From NCBI GenBank assembly GCA_017412605.1, contig JAFPWY010000004.1, forward strand, positions 248,001 to 312,000: DNA of 64,000 bases, written 5' to 3'. The notes under the pieces are model-generated. The model was not told the DNA's origin and did no database searches. It was given only the letters and a program-made list of their open reading frames with translations. Both the position numbers and the translations under genes were made by a program. This stretch comes from Fibrobacter sp. (lineage in GTDB: Bacteria; Fibrobacterota; Fibrobacteria; Fibrobacterales; Fibrobacteraceae). Below, piece by piece: positions 24,620-36,667 of the stretch (its first letter is position 1; every line of letters starts with the position of its first letter).

Positions 24620-24659
24620 ACCAGAAAAAGCAAAACGGGTCGGTTGTGCCGGCCCGTTT
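24620..24659 (-). terminator. Terminator of the downstream FISUMP cassette
   Basis: On the minus strand AAACGGGCCGG pairs with CCGACCCGTTT (one wobble), followed by TGCTTTTT. It is nearly the same sequence as the hairpin at 29449-29475. The rest of 24408-24697 is AT-rich and holds the purT promoter region; no gene is seen. Confidence 0.85.
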
Positions 24660-24663
24660 GAAA

Positions 24664-24700
24664 TTGCGCTTGTTTCTATGTCGTACGATACATAGCCTCA
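24664..24700 (-). pseudogene. Remnant of FISUMP-paralogue sequence after a premature stop
   Basis: After VQSL the frame meets TGA where the paralogue at 29514-31148 has TGC (VQTLC). Beyond the stop the same frame reads GYVSYDIETS, which matches the paralogue GGEPYDIEQS. Homology then ends at the terminator, so the remainder of the paralogue was deleted. Confidence 0.75.
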
Positions 24701-25717
24701 AAGAGACTGCACTTTATCGTCTTTGCAGAACTGGAGATCCGGATCGTACGTTTCGCCACAGCACTTCGCATAAAGCACGCCATTATCGGTGCAGAAGAAG
24801 CCCTCGGTATCGTAGGTGCCGTTTTCTTCATCAAGAGCAGAGGCTTCCACGCCTTCGGAAACTTCATTACAGCGCCGGACAGCACCAGCATAGTTTACGC
24901 CACAGAACTGCGTCGTGTAATCGTAAGTTTGGCCTTCACACTTTGGTAAAACGATATCTGTCACATCACAGAAATAGGCCATCACATTGTAGGTACCGTC
25001 GGAATGGAGATAATAATCCTTCCCTTCGGGAGCTCTGCTGCAAAGCGGGTAGACATTCTCGTCGGAGGCACAGAAATGCGTTGTCGGGTCAAAGAACGCC
25101 TTACCACAAGAAGCCCTGAAAATACTCACGGATTTTTCTCCGCATGTCACAGTAACTTCGCCATTTTTGCCATCTGCAAGCGAGCATCCTTCACCATCGT
25201 CTCCGTTCAGGACCGTACCCACGGTCTTGCCATCGCATACGAAGTCAAAACCGGTCTTGTTCTTGTTCTGCTTGGCGGTGCAGTTCATGCTGCCGGCGTT
25301 GCCAGCCTTGCCTGCTTCGCCATCGGAGCCATTCTCGATAGAGCCGACCGTCTTGCCATCACAGACAATGTCGAAACCGGTCTTTTTCTTGTTCTGCTTG
25401 GCAATGCAGCTCGAGCCTTCTTTGCCGTCCTTGCCGTCAGAGCCATCCTTGCCATCCTTACCGTCTTCGCCGTCCTTGCCGTCCAGCAGTTCCCAGCCAT
25501 CGTCGGTGCACACGAACACCTTTGCGGAATCCTTCACGTACACAAGTGAACCTTCGGCGTCCTCTTCACATTTCGGGAGTTCCTTGAACTTCTTTACCTC
25601 TTCGAGTTTGACAGTCCCTCTCACGTTGGTCACTTCGGTAACTTCGTCGCCACAGGCTACGAGGTGTGCAAGACCCGCAACGATTCCCGCTGCATAGACA
25701 TAGTGTCTGATTGCCAT
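24698..25717 (-). CDS. Truncated FISUMP-family lipoprotein (no C-terminal FISUMP domain)
   Basis: 339 residues. Lipoprotein signal MAIRHYVYAAGIVAGLAHLVAC. Then a shared segment (VTEVTN to VYVKDSAKVFVCTDDGW), a collagen-like GKDG run, two copies of a module of the form CxAKQNKxKTGFDxVCDGKTVG, and a Cys module pattern YDxxTxFC repeated (DPTTHFC, YDYTTQFC, YDPDLQFC). It ends at VQSL, where the full-length paralogue continues through a FISUMP domain. The last gene of the downstream cassette. Probably still translated and exported, but incomplete. Confidence 0.85.
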   Translation of the reverse strand: MAIRHYVYAAGIVAGLAHLVACGDEVTEVTNVRGTVKLEEVKKFKELPKCEEDAEGSLVYVKDSAKVFVCTDDGWELLDGKDGEDGKDGKDGSDGKDGKEGSSCIAKQNKKKTGFDIVCDGKTVGSIENGSDGEAGKAGNAGSMNCTAKQNKNKTGFDFVCDGKTVGTVLNGDDGEGCSLADGKNGEVTVTCGEKSVSIFRASCGKAFFDPTTHFCASDENVYPLCSRAPEGKDYYLHSDGTYNVMAYFCDVTDIVLPKCEGQTYDYTTQFCGVNYAGAVRRCNEVSEGVEASALDEENGTYDTEGFFCTDNGVLYAKCCGETYDPDLQFCKDDKVQSL

Positions 25718-25777
25718 CTATATCTCCTTTAAATAAAATTTCCTGTTTGATTTTCCTTGTTGTAACGGACTAAGATC

Positions 25778-27466
25778 TTAGTTCTTCTTGATGCAACGGA
25801 CAGCCAATTTAAAAGATTTTTCCGCCCAAGTTCCATCCACACTCAACACCTCGTCATACAGACCAAATGCAATAGCGTACCTATCGTCAGTTTCATTTTC
25901 GTCGCTGGACCAAAGCGAGAACCGTTCAGTTATGAATTCAGTATTATTTTCAAGGCCTGTACGCAAGTCACCATTGAAAGGCTTTCCTTGAATTGAATAA
26001 TACGTATAAAGATTGGCAATAACGGCCCAGTCATCTTTAGTTGGCATACGCCAGCCATCTGGACAGGATTCTAGCGCAGCAGCCCAATTGTAAAGCCTTC
26101 CATAAGTTTCACAATTACGCGAATCATTATCAAAACAAGATGTTTTGCGCGTTCCGTTCGAATTCTCATATTTCAAATTTTGCGCCATCCATGTTTCAGA
26201 GTAAACAACTTCATTATCGATGTTTTTCTGAACAACTTCCACAAATTCGTACGAATGGCCGTCACGAGCATCGCAGAATTGAGTGCGGACATCATACATA
26301 TGGGAATCCTCTTCACACCAATTTTCGCCAGCACCGTTGGGTTTGCAGCACGCCTTGGCGTATTGAACCTTGCCATTCACGCACATGGAATCCGTAATGT
26401 CGTACGCCTTCTTTTTCTTGCCGCAAAGGTCCGCAACCTGAGCATCTTCTCCGTCCGAGCTGCAGAACTGTTCGTCCGGATTGAACCATATGCCACCATA
26501 GCCAGTGCCTGCATATCCCCCACAATTTTTCCAAAGAACCCCATTATGGCAGAAGTGAGTTGTCTCGCTGTACATACCATTTTTATAAAGCGCATCGGGG
26601 TCCACGCCCTCGGCAACCTCCTTGCAACGGTCAATAGGTATGTATTGACTACAAAATTGCTTCGAATAATCATATGCCATCTTTTGGGGCCCACAAAGTC
26701 TCAATAACAAATCTATCTTGTCACAGAAAAACTCGTTCACATCGTAGGTGCCATCATCATTGAGGTATTCATCAAGACCTTCGTTAGTTTGATGACATTT
26801 CAAGTAGGCCTTGTTCTCTACACAGAACTGCGTTTCCGGATCGAAGGAATCTGAACCACACAGGGCCTTGTAAAGCGTCGTCGTTTTCTGACCACACTTA
26901 ACGTCGACCTGGCCGTTTTTGCCTTCCTTGAGCACGCAGTCGCTGCCGTCATCGCCGTCCACGACGGTGCCCTTGGTTACTCCGTCGCAAACGATATCGT
27001 AGCCGCCCTTTTTCTTGTTCTGTTTCAAGGTGCAGCCGGAGCCGTCTTCGCCGTCCGAACCGTCCTTGCCATCGGAGCCATTCTCTATGGAGCCCACCTT
27101 CTTGCCGTCGCAAACAAGGTCGAAGCCGGTCTTTTTCTTGTTCTGCTTCACGGTGCAGCCGGAACCGTCCTTGCCGTCGGAACCGTCCTTGCCGTCCTTG
27201 CCGTCCGCGCCATCGGCACCATTTTTACCGTTTAACCGATCCCAGTCCCCGCCGATACACACGAACACCTTTGCGGAATCCTTCACATAGACCATGGAGC
27301 CATCGGCATCCTCGTCGCACTTCGGGAGTTCCTTGAATTTCTTGACCTGGTCGAGCGTAGCCTTCTCGCTTACGTTCGTCACTTCGGTAACTTCGTCGCT
27401 ACACGCCGCGAGGAGTGAGAGACCCGCAGCAATCCCTGCTGCATAGACATAGTGCCTGATTGCCAT
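25778..27466 (-). CDS. FISUMP-domain lipoprotein, type A
   Basis: 562 residues. Lipoprotein signal (LLAAC-SDE), shared N-terminal segment, collagen-like GKDG/GADG run, two CxxKQNKKKxGxDxVCDG modules, then about seven Cys modules: FDPETQFC, YDVNEFFC, YDYSKQFC, YSETTHFC, FNPDEQFC, YDITDSMC and YDVRTQFC. The C-terminal FISUMP domain has WMAQNLKYEN, YGRLYNWAAALESCPDGWRMPTKDDW, SLWSSDE and AVRCIKKN. AAAGGAGATATAG precedes the ATG. It lies 60 bases before the truncated gene and is the partner of 31209-32951. Likely cell-surface exposed; ligand unknown. Confidence 0.9.
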   Translation of the reverse strand: MAIRHYVYAAGIAAGLSLLAACSDEVTEVTNVSEKATLDQVKKFKELPKCDEDADGSMVYVKDSAKVFVCIGGDWDRLNGKNGADGADGKDGKDGSDGKDGSGCTVKQNKKKTGFDLVCDGKKVGSIENGSDGKDGSDGEDGSGCTLKQNKKKGGYDIVCDGVTKGTVVDGDDGSDCVLKEGKNGQVDVKCGQKTTTLYKALCGSDSFDPETQFCVENKAYLKCHQTNEGLDEYLNDDGTYDVNEFFCDKIDLLLRLCGPQKMAYDYSKQFCSQYIPIDRCKEVAEGVDPDALYKNGMYSETTHFCHNGVLWKNCGGYAGTGYGGIWFNPDEQFCSSDGEDAQVADLCGKKKKAYDITDSMCVNGKVQYAKACCKPNGAGENWCEEDSHMYDVRTQFCDARDGHSYEFVEVVQKNIDNEVVYSETWMAQNLKYENSNGTRKTSCFDNDSRNCETYGRLYNWAAALESCPDGWRMPTKDDWAVIANLYTYYSIQGKPFNGDLRTGLENNTEFITERFSLWSSDENETDDRYAIAFGLYDEVLSVDGTWAEKSFKLAVRCIKKN

Positions 27467-27527
27467 CTATATCTCCTTTAGTAAATTCTCTGTTTAAAAT
27501 TTTTTGACGTTCTAGCCCATGTTGGCC

Positions 27528-29405
27528 TTAATCAGCAGCATTTCTGACACAACGGACAGAGTATGCATAAAATTTATCGTTGAAATTAGTTATCGGGTTC
27601 ATTGTAGATATCATCCCCAAAGCATAGGCACTATATGCTTTATTTTCAGTATTGTATTCATCAAAATATTCAGTAGACGTCCAGAACATGGTTTGCGAAC
27701 GGAACCCTACGTAAGTCCAAGAACCTTCTGCGTTAAAATTGCCATATCCGGCCGGGAGCGCCGCAAAACCCGTCTCGTTGTTTCCCAAGCTACTTGAAGT
27801 AACCCACGCCCATTCCAGGCTATCGCTGTCGACTCCTGCGCCATACAAGGCCTCGTCATTGACCTTGTAGTATTTACCGTCCCTACTCAACGAATTAGCC
27901 TCGCCTCTACTCGGCAAATGCCAGCCGTCGGGGCAAATGCCCTTTACAACACCCGACAAGTCGCAATCTTCAGCACCATAACCGCAGACTACAGGATTTT
28001 TTCCCGTATTGAGCGCAGCGGAATCAATAGCGGCAGCCCATGTGTAGAGGCGGCCATACTTAACGCAGTTGGCAGAGTCGTTGTTAAAGCAGAAACTGGT
28101 GGAATCGAGTTTCAAATTGCCCTTCGCTGTGGGGAGTTTCATCTGCGAGTCGTTGTAGTTCAGGTTCTGAGCCATCCATACCAAATCTCCAATAGTCGTG
28201 TACTTGTAGACCTGATAGTCACGGGTATCGCAAATCGAGCCCCGACCTTGATAGTCGTCCGCTCCAGTATAGCGCACATCGATATCAAGAGAATCATTCA
28301 CCTTGCCCGACTTGGTGCAAACCTTCATATCATGAAGTTCGCCCTTGCCCGAGCTCTTTAACGTACAATAATCCGTACGCGGGTTGAAAAGGCGTTGGTC
28401 CGAACCGCAAGTATCCATATTTGCGACCTGGATTCCCTTGGCAAACTTTGTCTTGTAGCAGTACTGGTATTCGGGCTTGTATTTCGGGCTCTTCTTGTCG
28501 CCCTTGACACAATTGGCCAAGGGTCTTATCTTGTATGATTTCAAATCGCAATACTCATTCTCGTAATCGTAGTCGAGCAAAACATAATCTCCATCATCTT
28601 GTTCGACAGTGCATTTTTCTCGGAGAGTATCGTTTCCATCGCAGAACAGGTAGGTTGGATCGTAGGTTTCCTCGAAAAAGTCACCCTCTGAATCAGTCCT
28701 GTATTTACAGCGATTTCCCACAACAAGCGAGCCATTTCCATAAAGTTGATAGCAGAACTGGGTTTCCGGATCGTAGGGGGCACTGCCGCAAGCGGCTCTG
28801 AACAAGGTAACAGTGTTCGCACCGTCACCGCAGGTCACGTTGACCGTGCCGTTTTCGCCATTCTCGAGAACGCAGCCGCTACCATCTTCACCATCGACGC
28901 CATTCATAATCGTCACGGTCTTGTTGCCACAGGAAACATCGAAGCCGGTCCTTTTCTTGTTCTGCTTCACGGTGCAGCTCGCACCGGCAGCGCCGGAGTC
29001 GCCAGAGTCACCGTCGGAACCGTTCTCGAGGGTACCGATTTTCTTGCCGTCGCAAACAACGTCAAATCCGTTAGACTTGTTCTGCTTCACGGTGCAGTTC
29101 GCACCATCCGACCCGTCCTTGCCGTCTTTGCCGTCCTTGCCCTTCTTGCCATCTGCACCATCAATACCATTCAAGCGAATCCAGCCATCGCTGGTGCAGC
29201 CGAACACCTTCGCGGAATCCTTCACAAAGACGACAGTCCCTTCAACATCTTCGTTACACTTCGGGAGTTGTTTGAACTTCTCTACCTGGTCAAGCGAGGC
29301 GTTCCCGCTCACATTGGTCACTTCGGTGACATCGTCGCCACAAGCTGCAAAAAATGCGATGCTCATGGCGATACCTGCCGCATAGGCATAGCGTCCAATT
29401 ATCAT
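27528..29405 (-). CDS. FISUMP-domain lipoprotein, type B
   Basis: 625 residues. Signal with lipobox FFAAC-GDD, shared segment ending VFGCTSDGW, collagen-like GKDG run, KQNK modules, then Cys modules (YDPETQFC, YDPTYLFC, FNPRTDYC) with a long Lys/Tyr-rich region. The FISUMP domain has LVWMAQNLNYND, YGRLYTWAAAIDS, GICPDGWHLPSRGEA, FWTSTEYFDE and YSVRCVRNAAD. It is the first gene of the downstream cassette and the partner of 33014-34915; the segment GKGELHDMKVCTKSGKV is the same in both. The promoter region carries the 29427 palindrome. Confidence 0.9.
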   Translation of the reverse strand: MIIGRYAYAAGIAMSIAFFAACGDDVTEVTNVSGNASLDQVEKFKQLPKCNEDVEGTVVFVKDSAKVFGCTSDGWIRLNGIDGADGKKGKDGKDGKDGSDGANCTVKQNKSNGFDVVCDGKKIGTLENGSDGDSGDSGAAGASCTVKQNKKRTGFDVSCGNKTVTIMNGVDGEDGSGCVLENGENGTVNVTCGDGANTVTLFRAACGSAPYDPETQFCYQLYGNGSLVVGNRCKYRTDSEGDFFEETYDPTYLFCDGNDTLREKCTVEQDDGDYVLLDYDYENEYCDLKSYKIRPLANCVKGDKKSPKYKPEYQYCYKTKFAKGIQVANMDTCGSDQRLFNPRTDYCTLKSSGKGELHDMKVCTKSGKVNDSLDIDVRYTGADDYQGRGSICDTRDYQVYKYTTIGDLVWMAQNLNYNDSQMKLPTAKGNLKLDSTSFCFNNDSANCVKYGRLYTWAAAIDSAALNTGKNPVVCGYGAEDCDLSGVVKGICPDGWHLPSRGEANSLSRDGKYYKVNDEALYGAGVDSDSLEWAWVTSSSLGNNETGFAALPAGYGNFNAEGSWTYVGFRSQTMFWTSTEYFDEYNTENKAYSAYALGMISTMNPITNFNDKFYAYSVRCVRNAAD

Positions 29406-29426
29406 TATATGCTCCTACAAATATTT

Positions 29427-29440
29427 TTTGCTTACGCAAA
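29427..29440. promoter_or_regulatory. Palindrome TTTGCTTACGCAAA upstream of the downstream cassette
   Basis: An imperfect 14-bp palindrome (TTTGC-GTAA-GCAAA on the minus strand), about 22 bases from the ATG of the type B gene. The same 14 bases occur at the corresponding place before the upstream cassette (34940-34953). Could be an operator near the start of transcription. Confidence 0.55.
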
Positions 29441-29448
29441 TGTAACAA

Positions 29449-29475
29449 AAACGGGTCGGTAATACCGACCCGTTT
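29449..29475 (-). terminator. Terminator of the upstream FISUMP cassette
   Basis: A perfect 12-bp stem AAACGGGTCGGT-AAT-ACCGACCCGTTT, followed on the minus strand by TTTTGTTACATTT. It separates the two cassettes. Confidence 0.85.
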
Positions 29476-29513
29476 GAAATTGAATTTGACTATACTATGT
29501 GAGGTTGACTGCT

Positions 29514-31148
29514 CTACTTCTTCTTGATGCAGCGGACACTATACAGATATTTCTTTAAAGTCACATTTTCCGCTGTATAAAAAGTAAATGAATCAAAACT
29601 ATTAACATATCCTGGCTGCCCATGCGTAGCGTCAATTATATCGGCAGTCCATAATTCCATCCAGGCACCCACCCCAGCCCAAGTTCCATAATATCGTCCA
29701 CCAAGTTGCACATTAAAATCCTTTTTAGGAATAAATCCAGCATAGATAAATTCCTTGTATTCAGACATTGTCGGCAAACGCCAACCAGTCGGGCAATAGG
29801 TATTCGCGGCATCCCAGGTATAAAGGTGGCCATATTTCTTGCAATTTTCACTGTCATCATTATAGCAGCGAGACTCATCATCTGCCGTGTTATCAAAGTC
29901 CAAATTCTCAAGCATCCAGGTTTCAGAGTAGTTAACACCATCGTTAAACGTCTTAAACTTATAAACCCGTGTTTCTCCATCCGTGTTCTTACGATTGTCG
30001 CAGAAATGGGTACGGACATCGTACTTAGAATCTTTATGGAGATTGCACCAGTTTTCATTCTGGCCCTCGGGATAACAGCAGGCCCAGGCATCTACAATCT
30101 CACCATCAACGCACATGGATTGCTCAATGTCGTACGGTTCACCGCCGCAGAGAGTCTGCACTTCGCCGTCTTCGCAGAACTGGAGTTCCGGATCGTATGT
30201 CATACCGCCGCACTTTTCATAAAGGACTCCCTTATTGCAGAAGTACAGCGAAGCGTTGAAGCTTTTATCTCCGAACAGGGCTTCTTCTTCATCCACACCC
30301 TCGGCAACCGATTCACAGCGATCCATCACCCCCAAAGCGGAAGCACAGAACTGCGTCGTATTGTCGTAAGATTGACCGAAGCACTTGTTCAAAAGGATAT
30401 CCGTCGCATCGCAGAAGTAGTTTTCCACATCATAGGTGCCATCGGAATGGAGATCCCCTGCAAGATTTTCAGGAGCATTGTGACAAAGCGGATAGGCGAC
30501 CAGATCGTTTCCGCAGAACTGCGTGGTCGGGTCGAAGTTTTTCGCACCGCAATAGGCCGAGAACAACGTAACGGGTTCGCCATCCTCGCCGCACTTCACC
30601 ACGGCCGTACCGTTCTCGCCTTCCGTAAGCGAGCAATCTTCGCCAACGGAGCCGTTCGTAATCGTGCCCACGGTCTTGCCGTCGCAGACAATGTCGAAAC
30701 CGTTCTTCTTCTTGTTCTGCTTGGCAGAGCAGTTCATGCTGCCGTCACTACCGGCCTTGCCGGCCTTGCCGTCAGAGCCATTCATGATGGAACCCACCAT
30801 CTTACCGTCGCAAATCACGTCAAAGCCGGTCTTTTTCTTGTTCTGCTTGGCAACGCAGTTCGAGCCGTCATCGCCGCTCGAGCCGTTCTTGCCATCCTTG
30901 CCATCGGAACCATCCAATTGGTTCCAACCGTCACCGGTGCACACGAACACCTTCGCGGAGTCCTTCACGTACACGAGGGAGCCTTCGGCATCTTCGTCGC
31001 ACTTCGGGAGTTCCTTGAACTTCTTTACCTCTTCGAACGAAGCCTTCCCGTTCACTTCGGTCACTTCGGTGACATCGTCGCCGCACGCCGCGAGGAGTGC
31101 GAGACCCGCAGCGATTCCTGCTGCATAGACATAGTGTCTGATAGCCAT
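29514..31148 (-). CDS. FISUMP-domain lipoprotein, type A' (full-length partner of the truncated gene)
   Basis: 544 residues. Lipoprotein signal (LLAAC-GDD), collagen-like GSDGKDGKNG run, two KQNKKK modules, then Cys modules FDPTTQFC, YDVENYFC, YDNTTQFC, FNASLYFC, YDPELQFC, YDIEQSMC and YDVRTHFC. The FISUMP domain has WMLENLDFDN, YGHLYTWDAANTYCPTGWRLPTMSEY and YSVRCIKKK. Its YDPELQFC-VQTLCGGEPYDIEQSMC stretch is the intact version of the broken site in 24698-25717. Last gene of the upstream cassette; the hairpin at 29449 follows. Confidence 0.9.
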   Translation of the reverse strand: MAIRHYVYAAGIAAGLALLAACGDDVTEVTEVNGKASFEEVKKFKELPKCDEDAEGSLVYVKDSAKVFVCTGDGWNQLDGSDGKDGKNGSSGDDGSNCVAKQNKKKTGFDVICDGKMVGSIMNGSDGKAGKAGSDGSMNCSAKQNKKKNGFDIVCDGKTVGTITNGSVGEDCSLTEGENGTAVVKCGEDGEPVTLFSAYCGAKNFDPTTQFCGNDLVAYPLCHNAPENLAGDLHSDGTYDVENYFCDATDILLNKCFGQSYDNTTQFCASALGVMDRCESVAEGVDEEEALFGDKSFNASLYFCNKGVLYEKCGGMTYDPELQFCEDGEVQTLCGGEPYDIEQSMCVDGEIVDAWACCYPEGQNENWCNLHKDSKYDVRTHFCDNRKNTDGETRVYKFKTFNDGVNYSETWMLENLDFDNTADDESRCYNDDSENCKKYGHLYTWDAANTYCPTGWRLPTMSEYKEFIYAGFIPKKDFNVQLGGRYYGTWAGVGAWMELWTADIIDATHGQPGYVNSFDSFTFYTAENVTLKKYLYSVRCIKKK

Positions 31149-31208
31149 CTATATCTCCTTTAAATAAAATTTCCTGTTTGAATTTCCTTGTTATAACAGA
31201 CTAAAGCC

Positions 31209-32951
31209 TTAATTTCCTGTTTTCTTGATGCAACGGACATTAAGCAAGTATAAGTCGTCAACTATTGATTGGCCCTTAGATGCAATAGCACCATCTGCTT
31301 CACTTACGATACCTATATAAGCATTGTACTGATTCAAGCCCGTTTTGCTCCAGAAGTATCCAGTACTAGACGCAGCCACTTCATAAACCTTGTTATCATC
31401 CTCCGGATCGGCTTTCAAATAACCTCCAGGGATTACAGAGAAACCTGACGTATTCATAGATGTGGCAAAGAAGGAGTATGCCATATTATCATAAGCTGCA
31501 AACAAGGCCGCGTACTGTTCTTGTGTCGGAAGAGTCCAGCCATCCGGGCAAGAAGATTTTGCAGTAGACCATGAGTAATAGCGTCCATACGTTTTATCGC
31601 AAGTAGTCTCATCTTTTTTGCGGCATTCGCTCACGAAGTCAGCGGCTGTCGCAAGGACATAGTTGAGGTTTTCGGCCATCCAGGTTGCGGAGTAAACAAC
31701 TTCCCCATCCTCGTTTTCCTTGGCAATTTTTGTGAACTTATAAGTTTGTCCGTCACGAGCATCGCAGAAATGCGTACGGACATCATACTTGTGAGAAGGT
31801 TCTTCACACCAGCTTTCGCCAGCACCGGTGGGTTTGCAACATTCCTTGGCGTATTGGACCTTGCCATTCACGCACATGGAATCCGTAACGTCGTACGTCT
31901 TCTTTTTCTTGCCGCAGAGATCAGCGATTTGCCCACTGGGATCCCCCGGATCTTCCGAGCTGCAGAACTGGGTTTCCGGATCATACTTGGAGCCATACAT
32001 CTGCCGACCATTATGATCTCCCCCGCATTTATTCCAGAGAACCCCGTTATGGCAAAAGTAGAAACCACCAAAAGTACCATTCTCCAGTTGAGATTCATCC
32101 ACATGCGCAGCAACCTTGCTACAACGATCCTCAGGATACATGTTCAGGTAGCAGAACTGCGTCGTAAGGTCATACGACTGACCACCACACAAATCAACAA
32201 GTGAATCCGTCACATCGCAGAAATAGAAGTTCACATCGTAGGTGAAATCTTCATTTAGGCCATCATCATGTCCTTCACGTAAATTGTGGCATTTCGGGTA
32301 GGCCTTGTTGTCTACGCAGAACTGCGTCGCCGGGTCGTAGGTTCCAGAACCGCAGAAGGCCTTGGCAAGCGTCACGGTCTCTCCGCCGCACTTCACGGAC
32401 ACCTGTCCGGAACCATTGTCTTCGAGGGAGCAGCCGTCGCCCGTCTTGCCATCATCGCCGTTTAAAACCGTACCCACGGTCTTGCCACCGCAGACGATGT
32501 CGAAGCCGGTCTTTTTCTTGTTCTGCTTCACGGTGCAGCTTGCGCCGTCATCACCGTCCGAGCCGTTCTTGCCGTCGGAACCGTTTTCTACGGAGCCCAC
32601 CTTCTTGCCGTCGCAGACAATGTCAAGTCCGGTCTTTTTCTTGTTCTGCTTCACGGTGCAGCTCGTGCCGTCGTTGCCGTTCGAACCGTTCTTGCCGTCG
32701 GAACCGTCCTTGCCGTTCAGTGAGACCCAGTCCTTGCCGTTGCAAGAGAACACCTTTGCAGAATCCTTCACGTACACGAGGGAGCCTTCGGCGTCCTCGT
32801 CACACTTCGGGAGTTCCTTGAATTTCTTGACCTGGTCGAGCGAAGCCTTCTCGCTCACTTCCGTCACTTCGGTGACTTCGTCGCCGCACGCCGCGAGGAG
32901 TGCGAGACCTGCAGCGATTCCCGCTGCATAGACATAGTGTCTGATTGCCAT
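31209..32951 (-). CDS. FISUMP-domain lipoprotein, type A
   Basis: 580 residues. Same plan as 25778-27466: LLAAC-GDE lipobox, collagen-like GKDGSDGKNGSNG run, two KQNKKKTGxDIVC modules, Cys modules YDPATQFC, YDVNFYFC, YDLTTQFC, YDPETQFC, YDVTDSMC and YDVRTHFC, and a FISUMP domain with WMAENLNYV, YGRYYSWSTAKSSCPDGWTLPTQEQY, GYFWSKTG and LLNVRCIKKTGN. Intergenic sequences on both sides match those around 25778-27466, which supports segmental duplication. Confidence 0.9.
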   Translation of the reverse strand: MAIRHYVYAAGIAAGLALLAACGDEVTEVTEVSEKASLDQVKKFKELPKCDEDAEGSLVYVKDSAKVFSCNGKDWVSLNGKDGSDGKNGSNGNDGTSCTVKQNKKKTGLDIVCDGKKVGSVENGSDGKNGSDGDDGASCTVKQNKKKTGFDIVCGGKTVGTVLNGDDGKTGDGCSLEDNGSGQVSVKCGGETVTLAKAFCGSGTYDPATQFCVDNKAYPKCHNLREGHDDGLNEDFTYDVNFYFCDVTDSLVDLCGGQSYDLTTQFCYLNMYPEDRCSKVAAHVDESQLENGTFGGFYFCHNGVLWNKCGGDHNGRQMYGSKYDPETQFCSSEDPGDPSGQIADLCGKKKKTYDVTDSMCVNGKVQYAKECCKPTGAGESWCEEPSHKYDVRTHFCDARDGQTYKFTKIAKENEDGEVVYSATWMAENLNYVLATAADFVSECRKKDETTCDKTYGRYYSWSTAKSSCPDGWTLPTQEQYAALFAAYDNMAYSFFATSMNTSGFSVIPGGYLKADPEDDNKVYEVAASSTGYFWSKTGLNQYNAYIGIVSEADGAIASKGQSIVDDLYLLNVRCIKKTGN

Positions 32952-33013
32952 CTATATCTCCTTTAATAAGTTTCCTGTTTTAAAATTTTTTGACGTTCTA
33001 GCCCAAGTCGGCC

Positions 33014-34915
33014 TTATTCAGCATTATCCCGAACACAACGAACGGAGAATGCACCATATTTTTCGAGGTGACCAACTTGCGGGTATTCATTAGAATTCAA
33101 AATCACCACTACATGAGCCGGTGAGTTATAGTCCTCATCAGGATAGCGTTCCGTCGCAGTCCAAAAAACCATATCTTCACGCAAGCCCAAATAGTTCCAC
33201 GTCAAGGAATCATTTTCGTTTGTATTAAAGTAGCCACCACCAGACGGAAGAGCAGAAAAACCATATGCATCCGTTCCCAAATAACCACTCGGGATCCATT
33301 CAAGAATCTCTGTATTCATTTCTTTGAAGAAGAGAGCCTGATCGTCTACCATAAGATTAGAAGCATAATAATCAATAAGCCTAGAAGCCTCACTGAATGT
33401 CGGCAAGCGCCAGCCATCTGGGCAAATGCCCTTTACTTCATCCGGCAAATCGCAATCTTCAGCACCATAACCACAGACTACAGGATTTTTTCCCGAATTG
33501 AGTCTGATGGAATCAATGGCGGCAGCCCATGTGTAAAGGCGGCCATACTTGGTGCAGTTGGCAGGATCGTTGTCATAGCAGAAGCTCGTGGAATCGAGTC
33601 TTAAATCGCTCTTCGCGGTACGGCGCTTCATGAGCGAGTCCGTGTAGTTCAGGTTCTGCGCCATCCATACCAAACTTCCAATAGTCGTATACTTGTAGGC
33701 CTGGTAGTCGCGGGTATCGCAAATCGAGCCCCTGCCTTGATAGTCGTCCTCTCCAGTATAGCGCACATCGATATCGAGAGAATCCTTCACCTTGCCCGAC
33801 TTGGTGCAAACCTTCATATCATGAAGTTCGCCCTTGCCCGAGCTCTTTAACGTACAGTAGTCCGTTCGCGGGTTGAAATAACGATTGTCCGAACCGCACT
33901 TAGGCATAAGTGCAACCTGGATTCCCTTGGCCTGCTTTGTCTTATAGCAGTACTCGTATTCGGGCTTGTATTTCGGGCTCTTCTTATCGCCCTTGACACA
34001 AGAGGCCAAGGCCCTTACCTTGAATGTATACAAATCGCAATACTCATTTTCGTAATCGTAGTCGAGCCAAACAGAGTCTCTTTCACCTTGTGCAACCTTG
34101 CATTTGTTTCGAAGAGTGTCGTTTCCATCGCAGAATGAATACCGCGGATCGTAGACCACATCGGAAAAGTCTTCAGGTTCGTCTTCCACTCCTTCGGACC
34201 GACCCCTCGCCTGACTCCTGTACTTACAACGGTTACCCACAAAGAATCCCCCATTTTCGGAATCCTTAAAGCAGAACTGCGTTTCCGGATCAAACGAGTT
34301 GTTGCCGCAAGCGGCCTTGAACAGAGTCAAGGAATTTGCATCGGCACCTTCACCGCAAGTCACCTTTACGGTTCCGTTTTCACCTTCTTTAAAGGTGCAG
34401 TCGGCACCGTCAGCACCATCAATTCCATCTGGAATCGTCACGGTCTTGTCGCCGCAAGTAACATCGATACCAGTCTTTTTCTTGTTCTGCTTCGCAGTGC
34501 AGTTCACGCCGTCATCGCCGGCCGAACCCTTCTTGCCATCGGAACCGTTTTCAATAGTGGCGACCGTCTTGCCGTCGCATACAATGTCGTAACCTGTCTT
34601 TTTCTTGTTCTGCTTGGCGGTGCAGCTCAAGCCGTCCTTGCCCGTAGAGCCATTCTTGCCGTCTGCACCATCAAGTCCGTTGAAGCGAACCCAGCCATCG
34701 CTGGTGCAACCGAACACTTTCGCGGAATCCTTCACATAAACGAGGGTCCCTTCAATATCCTCCTCGCACTTCGGAAGTTCCTTGAACTTCTTGACCTGGT
34801 CGAGCGAGGCGTTCTCGCTTACATTGGTCACTTCGGTGACGTCGTCACCACACGCCGCAAAGAGCACAAGGCTCGTGGCGATGCCTGCTGCATAGGCATA
34901 GTGTCTGATTGTCAT
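33014..34915 (-). CDS. FISUMP-domain lipoprotein, type B
   Basis: 633 residues, the first gene of the upstream cassette. Signal MTIRHYAYAAGIATSLVLFAAC, shared segment, short collagen-like run, KQNKKKTG modules, Cys modules FDPETQFC, YDPRYSFC and FNPRTDYC, then the FISUMP domain with LVWMAQNLNYTDS, YGRLYTWAAAIDS, GICPDGWRLPTFSEA, FWTATERYPDE and FSVRCVRDNAE. Large parts are nearly the same as 27528-29405. Confidence 0.9.
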   Translation of the reverse strand: MTIRHYAYAAGIATSLVLFAACGDDVTEVTNVSENASLDQVKKFKELPKCEEDIEGTLVYVKDSAKVFGCTSDGWVRFNGLDGADGKNGSTGKDGLSCTAKQNKKKTGYDIVCDGKTVATIENGSDGKKGSAGDDGVNCTAKQNKKKTGIDVTCGDKTVTIPDGIDGADGADCTFKEGENGTVKVTCGEGADANSLTLFKAACGNNSFDPETQFCFKDSENGGFFVGNRCKYRSQARGRSEGVEDEPEDFSDVVYDPRYSFCDGNDTLRNKCKVAQGERDSVWLDYDYENEYCDLYTFKVRALASCVKGDKKSPKYKPEYEYCYKTKQAKGIQVALMPKCGSDNRYFNPRTDYCTLKSSGKGELHDMKVCTKSGKVKDSLDIDVRYTGEDDYQGRGSICDTRDYQAYKYTTIGSLVWMAQNLNYTDSLMKRRTAKSDLRLDSTSFCYDNDPANCTKYGRLYTWAAAIDSIRLNSGKNPVVCGYGAEDCDLPDEVKGICPDGWRLPTFSEASRLIDYYASNLMVDDQALFFKEMNTEILEWIPSGYLGTDAYGFSALPSGGGYFNTNENDSLTWNYLGLREDMVFWTATERYPDEDYNSPAHVVVILNSNEYPQVGHLEKYGAFSVRCVRDNAE

Positions 34916-34939
34916 TATATGCTCCTATAAATGAGTTAT

Positions 34940-34953
34940 TTTGCTTACGCAAA
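34940..34953. promoter_or_regulatory. Palindrome TTTGCTTACGCAAA upstream of the upstream cassette
   Basis: Identical to 29427-29440, about 25 bases before the ATG at 34915. Beyond it, 34954-35074 is AT-rich and should hold the cassette promoter; a TATATA run lies at about 34985-34991. Confidence 0.55.
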
Positions 34954-35074
34954 TGTAAATAAAAACAAACTGAGTTGAAACATCTATATATATGCTTAGT
35001 ACAAAGTATGGCGAAATTTTCCCAAAAAACTTCATTTGTAAACAAGAATTTACATTAGAAGCTGGTCAAATTTT

Positions 35075-36667
35075 TTAGAATTTAGTATCAACGGGATTGA
35101 AGGTCATCTTTATGCCGGAACGGATCCATCCGTCCACGCCATCTTCACCCAAGATATGCGCCAAGTTGTCGTAACGGCGCACGCCCCCACCCAGATAGAT
35201 GGAGACATTGCTGTTGTATTGGATCTGGTACAGGGCATCCAAAATATACTGTGCCTCTTCGTGCCCCGACGGAGAAGATTCGGTCGCCACGGCACGGTCG
35301 TAGCTCGTATAAAGTTCGTTGTCGCCCTGACGCAGCCAGGCCAGCTCGAGCCGTGCGGAATGGCGTCCCCATTTCCATCCCAAATCAAGCCAAAGGTCCA
35401 GAGCGTCGGAACCGCGGCGGTAACCGATGGGATAATCGACAAAGTACATGTCGGCGTAATCGGGGTCGTTCTGCTCGCGGTAGTTGCTACGATAAAGACG
35501 ACGGCTGGAGTATTCCAAAAGCGGCAGGCGCCCGTTGTTATGCACGGGGTCGGTACGCACCACGTCGAACCGCCACGAGAACGTTCCGTAACGGGGCGTC
35601 GAGATTTCGTGGTAATAACCGGCCATGTAGCTTATCATGCTGCGGTTCGTGCCCTTGTCGTCATCTTCGCCCACGGGGCTGTTAATGTCTTCCAGGTTCA
35701 CCTGGCCGTAGAACTTCGCGCCCTTGATTGGCGTAAGCCCGAGTTCAAAAGTCGTCACCGCCTTGGTGTAGCCGCCACCGAAGTTGTTGTGCAGGAACAT
35801 GAACGGGTTGAGCGAGCGGAATTCCAGTTCCTTGCCGCCCACCATGCTTTCTTCGATGACATAGGTCCAGAAGTGCTTCGTCTCCACGCCCACACGGTGG
35901 TAAACGAGGTTCTTCACATTCTCGTCGTACTTGCGGTTACGCTGGTTGCTCGCCTGCTTGTTCGACGGAGTACATTTTTGTTCGTAGGCCTCGGTCCCCT
36001 CAGGCGGGCAGCCCGTCGCGGGGTCCACCACGTCGCCAAAGAGCCAGGCATTCAGCGAACTCACCAAGAAGTCGTAGCGGAAAATTCCCGGTTCAAATTT
36101 CCAGAGGAGCCCGTCGTGGTAAGGCGTGCCGCCCAGGGCGAGGTCGTTCGGGGAGACCTTCAAGTCGTCGGGGCTGAAGCGGCCCAACTGGACATAGCCG
36201 ACACCGTTGTCCCACTTCGCGTAGGCGTTTATGGGCACGGCAATGTCGAGTTCGCTCGGCTTGTACGTAAAGTTCGTCTTGAGGTCGGAATCGTACCACG
36301 CCTCGATATCCTTGCGCAGCGGGGCCTCTATCAAAAAATGGAAATCCCTGTAGCCCGCACGGAAGCTGAGCATGAAGAAGGGATCCACGTTGTCTTCGTA
36401 ACTGCGGGCGGTTTCGAGCGGAATGCGGAGCCCGCGCCAGTTGTTGCCGTAGGTCTCAACGGTGTCTACCGCAAATGTCGGATCGGTGGGTCCACCGTTC
36501 AGGCCGAAGTTGAAATCGGTGCCGATCTGGAAATAGCCCTTGTACTGCCGTCCCTCCTGAGAAGGTAGGGAATCCGCAGACTTTGCCGCAACGGAATCGA
36601 CCGTGGCTGCAACAGCAGTTCCGGCAAGCAGAGCAAAGGAAACAAGGGCTTTTCGCAATTTCAGCAT
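35075..36667 (-). CDS. Large outer-membrane beta-barrel protein, family unknown
   Basis: 530 residues with a signal peptide (MLKLRKALVSFALLAGTAVA-ATV). After a short Ser/Ala linker the chain alternates in the manner of a large barrel (YKGYFQIGTDFNFGLNGG, YVQLGRFSPDDLKVSP, WKWGRHSARLELAWLRQGD, VSIYLGGGVRRYD). It ends GIKMTFNPVDTKF. A Lys/Asn-rich loop with two cysteines (CPPEG, KCTPS) lies in the middle. Reminiscent of capsule-assembly barrels in its LGRF segment, but not assigned. Single gene upstream of the FISUMP clusters. Confidence 0.75.
   Translation of the reverse strand: MLKLRKALVSFALLAGTAVAATVDSVAAKSADSLPSQEGRQYKGYFQIGTDFNFGLNGGPTDPTFAVDTVETYGNNWRGLRIPLETARSYEDNVDPFFMLSFRAGYRDFHFLIEAPLRKDIEAWYDSDLKTNFTYKPSELDIAVPINAYAKWDNGVGYVQLGRFSPDDLKVSPNDLALGGTPYHDGLLWKFEPGIFRYDFLVSSLNAWLFGDVVDPATGCPPEGTEAYEQKCTPSNKQASNQRNRKYDENVKNLVYHRVGVETKHFWTYVIEESMVGGKELEFRSLNPFMFLHNNFGGGYTKAVTTFELGLTPIKGAKFYGQVNLEDINSPVGEDDDKGTNRSMISYMAGYYHEISTPRYGTFSWRFDVVRTDPVHNNGRLPLLEYSSRRLYRSNYREQNDPDYADMYFVDYPIGYRRGSDALDLWLDLGWKWGRHSARLELAWLRQGDNELYTSYDRAVATESSPSGHEEAQYILDALYQIQYNSNVSIYLGGGVRRYDNLAHILGEDGVDGWIRSGIKMTFNPVDTKF

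Follow-up and report, generated by a model that had tools for sequence, protein, structure and literature searches.

Two successive sets of three lipoprotein genes, designated B, A and A′, occur in a chromosomal stretch of a rumen-type Fibrobacter (64,000 nucleotides, hereafter the window), which raises the question of whether they arose by duplication of one block or by independent gain of paralogues, how old the event is and whether it is peculiar to this genome. As judged from sequence comparison, these are genes of a known lipoprotein family that underwent an old and real block duplication within a slot that varies across the whole genus. FISUMP proteins are present as very many paralogues in one of the main cellulose degraders of the rumen; their copy number is known to be high (17–119 per genome), and the FISUMP domain has been interpreted as a putative cellulose-binding protein or an analogue of cohesin (PMC4704652). 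In the window genome (G000, 3.53 Mb), whose contig 3 contains the window at positions 248001–312000, genome-wide profile search gave 116 FISUMP (TIGR02145) matches. The locus offers a dated duplication together with an orthologous single-copy control and empty-site controls, it maps conserved parts of the proteins (anchor, stalk) against the variable one (head) and allows the question of the head's ligand to be tested on a few matched proteins, thus representing one well-dated episode of surface-protein turnover in a plant-fibre degrader. The age of the duplication, the conversion between B1 and B2, the loss in a relative and the slot itself were not covered by the preliminary description of this DNA and are added here; no description of the tandem block duplication, the conversion tract or the slot was found in the literature searched.

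All genes of the locus, flanks included, are encoded on the minus strand (Table 1). On one side the cassettes are bordered by ORF530 (35075–36667), preceded by three genes that we take to be ftsQ, ftsA and ftsZ, and on the other by purT, identified from a Pfam match, followed by what is presumably pfl, these four names coming from sequence recognition. A syntenic relative, Fibrobacter sp. Tb.RUG.359 (G030; JAEERM010000001.1; a MAG, 86% complete), has the order ftsQ-ftsA-ftsZ-ORF530-[B-A-A′]-transposase-purT-pfl with one cassette, orthologous to cassette 1. The Transposase_31 (YhgA-like) gene of this relative (L090:13221–14195, minus strand) occupies the place where cassette 2 would be expected. 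A further B-like gene, its N-terminal part nearly identical between the two genomes, is located elsewhere in the chromosome, at the end of contig C148 in Tb.RUG.359 (L091:1–826) and at G000:C2:29955–31451.

Table 1. Features of the duplicated lipoprotein locus, in positions of the window
Feature	Position	Strand	Evidence
Duplication unit 1: inverted repeat - B1 - A1 - A′1 - terminator	29449..34964	-	collinear with unit 2 by blastn
Duplication unit 2: inverted repeat - B2 - A2 - truncated A′2 - terminator	24633..29451	-	collinear with unit 1 by blastn
Inverted repeat TTTGC-GTAA-GCAAA before B1	34940..34953	-	two sites genome-wide
Inverted repeat, second copy, before B2	29427..29440	-	genome motif search
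B1, 633 aa, FISUMP lipoprotein	33014..34915	-	TIGR02145 E=3.4e-39
B1 share of the supported B1/B2 gene-conversion tract, ends approximate	33420..34219	-	synonymous sites, dS
B1-A1 spacer, also kept in B2-A2 and Tb.RUG.359	32952..33013	-	
A1, 580 aa, FISUMP lipoprotein	31209..32951	-	TIGR02145 E=2.1e-27
A1-A′1 spacer, also kept in A2-A′2	31149..31208	-	
A′1, 544 aa, FISUMP lipoprotein	29514..31148	-	TIGR02145 E=1e-17
Unit 1 terminator hairpin	29449..29475	-	-19.7 kcal/mol, z -5.5
B2, 625 aa, FISUMP lipoprotein	27528..29405	-	TIGR02145 E=9e-39
B2-A2 spacer	27467..27527	-	
A2, 562 aa, FISUMP lipoprotein	25778..27466	-	TIGR02145 E=2e-26
A2-A′2 spacer	25718..25777	-	
A′2, 339 aa, truncated, without FISUMP domain	24698..25717	-	no TIGR02145/PF09603 match
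Unit 2 terminator hairpin	24633..24659	-	homologous to unit 1 terminator
ORF530-purT slot, occupied in the window genome	24408..35074	.	gap <300 bp in 32/53 genomes

Five of the six cassette proteins (B1, B2, A1, A2 and A′1) exceed the curated FISUMP cut-off (TIGR02145/PF09603) and are thus members of the FISUMP/Fib_succ_major proteins of Fibrobacteres; lipobox and conserved cysteines, traits of this family, are present in the sequences, and extracytoplasmic placement is predicted. In B1, the lipobox is followed by a trimerisation-like motif (LPKC..D.EGS.VYVKDSAKVF.C), short collagen-like GXY runs of 3–8 triplets, Cys-rich repeats and the FISUMP domain, and full-length cassette proteins contain 27–29 cysteines. 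Pfam matches to Collagen_trimer, Collagen and Lcl_C were all below curated cut-offs (21.8 bits against 34.9 for Lcl_C, PF07603, in B1). The structure model of the FISUMP domain (pLDDT 79, pTM 0.82) matched mostly C-type-lectin folds among its top PDB matches, including the Legionella Lcl-CTD (8q4e), none of them with E≤0.001, and a profile built from the FISUMP alignment found no match among solved structures. DUF1566/Lcl_C and Fib_succ_major have been reported as related (PMC4159848), and the collagen stalk of Lcl bears a trimeric C-type-lectin-like head, to which glycosaminoglycans bind (PMC11162425). The predicted layout of the cassette proteins, with N-terminal anchor, collagen-like stalk and C-terminal C-type-lectin-like head, resembles that of Lcl; however, Lcl is anchored by an amphipathic helix, its collagen repeats are long and its head has no disulphides (PMC11162425), whereas the cassette proteins have a lipid anchor, short GXY runs, numerous cysteines and an Lcl_C match below cut-off. 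Weak similarity to streptococcal Scl1/SclB (NF038330/NF038329) extends across the collagen-like stretch, but at 18 bits this match falls far short of the cut-off of 325, and Scl1/SclB are LPXTG-anchored and lack a FISUMP head. By model and analogy, the cassette proteins are most likely lipid-anchored trimeric stalks with a C-type-lectin-like FISUMP head, serving as adhesins or receptors in the manner of Lcl.

The preliminary description had read six frames here as B-A-A′ repeated twice, and all of them were recovered where it had placed them. Comparison of the two units by blastn gave a collinear diagonal in three segments (34964–33400/29451–27911, 78%, 1317 bits; 33065–31658/27579–26167, 74%, 849 bits; 31239–30124/25802–24675, 72%, 622 bits), with at most 29 bits for shuffled sequences. 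This diagonal runs across the B-A and A-A′ boundaries, so that the spacers are common to both units, breaks at the 3′ halves of the B and A FISUMP regions and stops at the truncation of A′2. The reported match of intergenic sequences was likewise found, the B-A spacer GGGCTAGAACGTCAAAAAATTTTAAA being present in both units and the A-A′ spacers being near-identical, and these spacers are more conserved than the cassette genes. The palindrome described before each cassette, TTTGCGTAAGCAAA, has exactly 2 sites in the whole genome with ≤1 mismatch allowed, both before B genes of the window, and also precedes B in Tb.RUG.359. Its role as a regulon site was rejected, the genome holding only the two cassette copies. 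Modelling suggests that, as RNA, it could form a hairpin whose loop is of GNRA type; this hairpin is part of the fold predicted for the B1 leader, which folds no better than its shuffles. Terminators of the same type, as had been observed, end both units with homologous hairpins AAACGGG...CCCGTTT. Segmental duplication of B-A-A′ as a block, preferred from the outset over independent gain of paralogues, is supported because collinearity of spacers and signals crosses gene boundaries and the copies pair by position in trees.

The reading of the cassette as three FISUMP genes applies to unit 1 only, since unit 2 contains two FISUMP genes, A′2 having lost its head: a stop occurs at the position of a Cys codon of A′1 and the remainder of the gene is absent. 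A′ of Tb.RUG.359 is truncated too, at a junction resembling that of A′2 (CGTACGACA-AGAAA), the stops having different causes, a 14-bp deletion versus a nonsense change. The absence of a FISUMP domain from A′2, the loss of one cassette in Tb.RUG.359 and its similarly truncated A′ would fit a decaying second cassette, with a duplication devoid of function beyond copy number; yet neither B2 nor A2 is disrupted, dN/dS between the copies is <1 and the signals are kept in both units, which makes such decay unlikely, though of the alternatives considered it is the one that fares best.

Trees were calculated for 27 array-type proteins from the window genome and other genomes of the genus, using the N-terminal/collagen region, the Cys-rich region and the whole protein, and for the FISUMP domain separately. 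In the former three, topologies ((B1,gB),B2), ((A1,gA),A2) and ((A′1,gA′),A′2) were obtained, where g denotes the single-cassette orthologue of Tb.RUG.359: B pairs with B in all of them, A with A at bootstrap 92/90/99 and A′ with A′ at 96/81/95, respectively, with genes of Tb.RUG.359 nested inside cassette 1. The arrangement named beforehand as contradicting block duplication, A closer to A′ of its own cassette than to its counterpart, was looked for in these three trees and not found. In the FISUMP-domain tree, the B genes group together, and A1, A2 and A′1 are too divergent to be placed (35% amino acid identity for A1-A2, 34% for A1-A′1). Close relatives were also inspected for ORF530 and purT, and five of them (G012, G017, G047, G051 and G071) have these genes 197–255 bp apart; since they are interleaved with the window genome and Tb.RUG.359 in the ORF530+purT tree, one node of which is weak, repeated loss or exchange at this site is implied. 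Insertion of cassette 2 beside cassette 1 through recombination with the diverged cassette of a related strain, rather than duplication in situ, would conform to the high variability of the slot across the genus and to the uncertain sister relation of Tb.RUG.359 and the window genome in this tree, but among 61 genomes of the genus only these two carry genes of the cassette type at >~50% identity to the B1 query, and the units abut at terminator and leader, so we regard this origin as rather improbable.

The duplication was dated by synonymous divergence, as calculated by the simple Nei-Gojobori method with values that are partly saturated. Between copies versus between orthologues, dS (95% CI) amounted to 0.81 [0.58–1.15] versus 0.27 [0.18–0.38] for the N-part of B, 0.79 [0.63–1.02] versus 0.34 [0.26–0.43] for A and 0.92 [0.71–1.20] versus 0.38 [0.29–0.49] for A′, bootstrap intervals being non-overlapping in all three cases. 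Cassette 1 differs from that of Tb.RUG.359 at dS 0.37–0.39, the level of flanking genes (0.21–0.51), and the cassettes from each other at 0.64–0.93. Fast evolution of these proteins at non-synonymous sites might give a recent duplication the look of an old one, yet this is very improbable given that cassette 1 matches the flanks in its dS to the orthologue, that between-cassette dS is ~2–3 times higher outside the conversion tract and that the trees put the duplication before the split. Because dS is higher between cassettes than between orthologues, the duplication is shown by dS and trees, at the level of molecular divergence, to predate the separation from Tb.RUG.359. Inspection of the locus in Tb.RUG.359 revealed a syntenic single cassette and an older duplication, and since the latter precedes the split, Tb.RUG.359 probably lost one copy, most simply cassette 2.

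The history that we consider probable on the whole combines block duplication of an ancestral operon with later conversion and loss and with lectin-like stalk function. An operon composed of the inverted repeat, B, A, A′ and a terminator, encoding three putative surface lipoproteins, was duplicated in tandem as one block before the separation from Tb.RUG.359, with the break, its exact crossover point aside, falling in T-rich sequence between terminator and leader. Afterwards, with statistical support, B1 and B2 exchanged a tract of ~0.8 kb, the FISUMP domain was lost from A′2, and Tb.RUG.359 probably returned to one cassette, possibly via recombination of A′1 with A′2. The trimerisation-like motif and short collagen-like runs would present the FISUMP head, which may bind a surface ligand, e.g., plant polysaccharide or glycan, or be recognised by phages or hosts; its C-terminal half would evolve fast, and the conserved anchor and stalk could act as recombination substrates.

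Synonymous positions separating B1, B2 and the Tb.RUG.359 orthologue were subjected to a permutation test. Sites common to B1 and B2 are concentrated in one segment (26 against 16 there, 12 against 49 elsewhere; p=0.001), where dS drops to 0.31 vs 0.81 and 1.40 on either side, so that gene conversion over ~0.8 kb between B1 and B2 is statistically supported. By the same approach, conversion in A1/A2 and A′1/A′2 was not significant or borderline (p 0.03–0.29). A second three-gene FISUMP array of the window genome, L099 (G000:C10:118–123.5 kb), is orthologous to L097 (G047:C36). Gene 2 of the C10 array carries the FISUMP domain of gene 1 (bootstrap 99), its N-terminus pairing with a different gene (97), and by these tree positions the C10/C36 array is an independent example of overwriting of a FISUMP domain by a neighbouring gene.

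Domain-wise comparison bore out the earlier remark that the copies diverged most in their C-terminal FISUMP domains, which turned out to be true and yet incomplete, as single-copy orthologues likewise diverge most there: identity of B1 to the orthologue declines from 97% at the N-terminus through 93 and 78 to 59% in FISUMP. Since orthologues show the same trend, C-terminal divergence is, as far as these alignments go, a property of the FISUMP domain rather than of duplication. In its C-half, dN/dS between orthologues reaches 0.90 (B) and 0.68 (A), with 0.01–0.07 for flanking genes (ftsQ/A/Z, ORF530, purT, pfl), and the differences are concentrated downstream of the conserved CPDGW motif. Reduced constraint and positive selection would both be compatible with these figures. 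For the FISUMP domains of A1 and A2, no full-domain donor of high identity was detected in 80 genomes, and their recent import from elsewhere was therefore rejected; their divergence may stem from ancient replacement or from hyper-divergence, which are indistinguishable here. That C-terminal variation was made by a diversity-generating retroelement (DGR), for which Fib_succ_major and DUF1566 are known target domains (PMC4159848), is scarcely credible and was rejected, because the sole reverse transcriptase match of the genome sits on another contig and substitutions are not adenine-biased (A takes part in 51–65% of those in the C half of FISUMP, ~50% being expected). This match (L168, G000:C15:18926–19390) lies inside an open frame of 541 aa.

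To what extent the locus is peculiar to the window genome was judged from 53 genomes in which a single contig carries ORF530 and purT on the same strand. These genes are 33–255 bp apart in 32 genomes and ≥1 kb apart in the other 21, two of the large gaps being >57 kb and possibly reflecting rearrangements. The single control gap measured, ftsZ-ORF530, is ≥1 kb in 0 of 70 genomes (Fisher p about 1e-9 with genomes treated as independent, which they are not). Within 16 occupied slots that were read (L171–L186), a FISUMP domain is present in 35 of 52 ORFs and a lipobox in most of the remaining ones; adding the window and Tb.RUG.359, FISUMP genes occur in 14 of 18 occupied slots. Architectures vary, with as many as six FISUMP domains in a chain and Ser-rich linkers (G022, seven tandem genes), and six tandem genes of the G045 slot have TEVT-type N-termini like those of the window. 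The duplication in the window thus generalises to one case of a recurrent process at one genomic place. Conserved 5′ and variable 3′ halves, copy-number change and conversion are shared with variable surface-protein loci made of tandem paralogues, unlike which no phase-variation device was noticed here and slot content shifts between different architectures. Tentatively, and with somewhat less than even confidence, the slot may be seen as a genus-wide site of surface display, where entire arrays of lipoproteins, FISUMP and others alike, are acquired, duplicated, converted and lost together, perhaps in the service of the neighbouring outer-membrane-type protein ORF530, their content forming a strain-defining repertoire of adhesins or phage receptors. 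ORF530 itself is well conserved across the genus; its N-terminus is signal-like, and a model of low confidence (pLDDT 50) predicts many long strands. Pfam search gave no match, and the model suggests that it is possibly an outer-membrane barrel. In the G045 slot (L175:13493–18577), genes of an Eco57I-type methylase and restriction-like genes are located beside the six tandem FISUMP lipoproteins.
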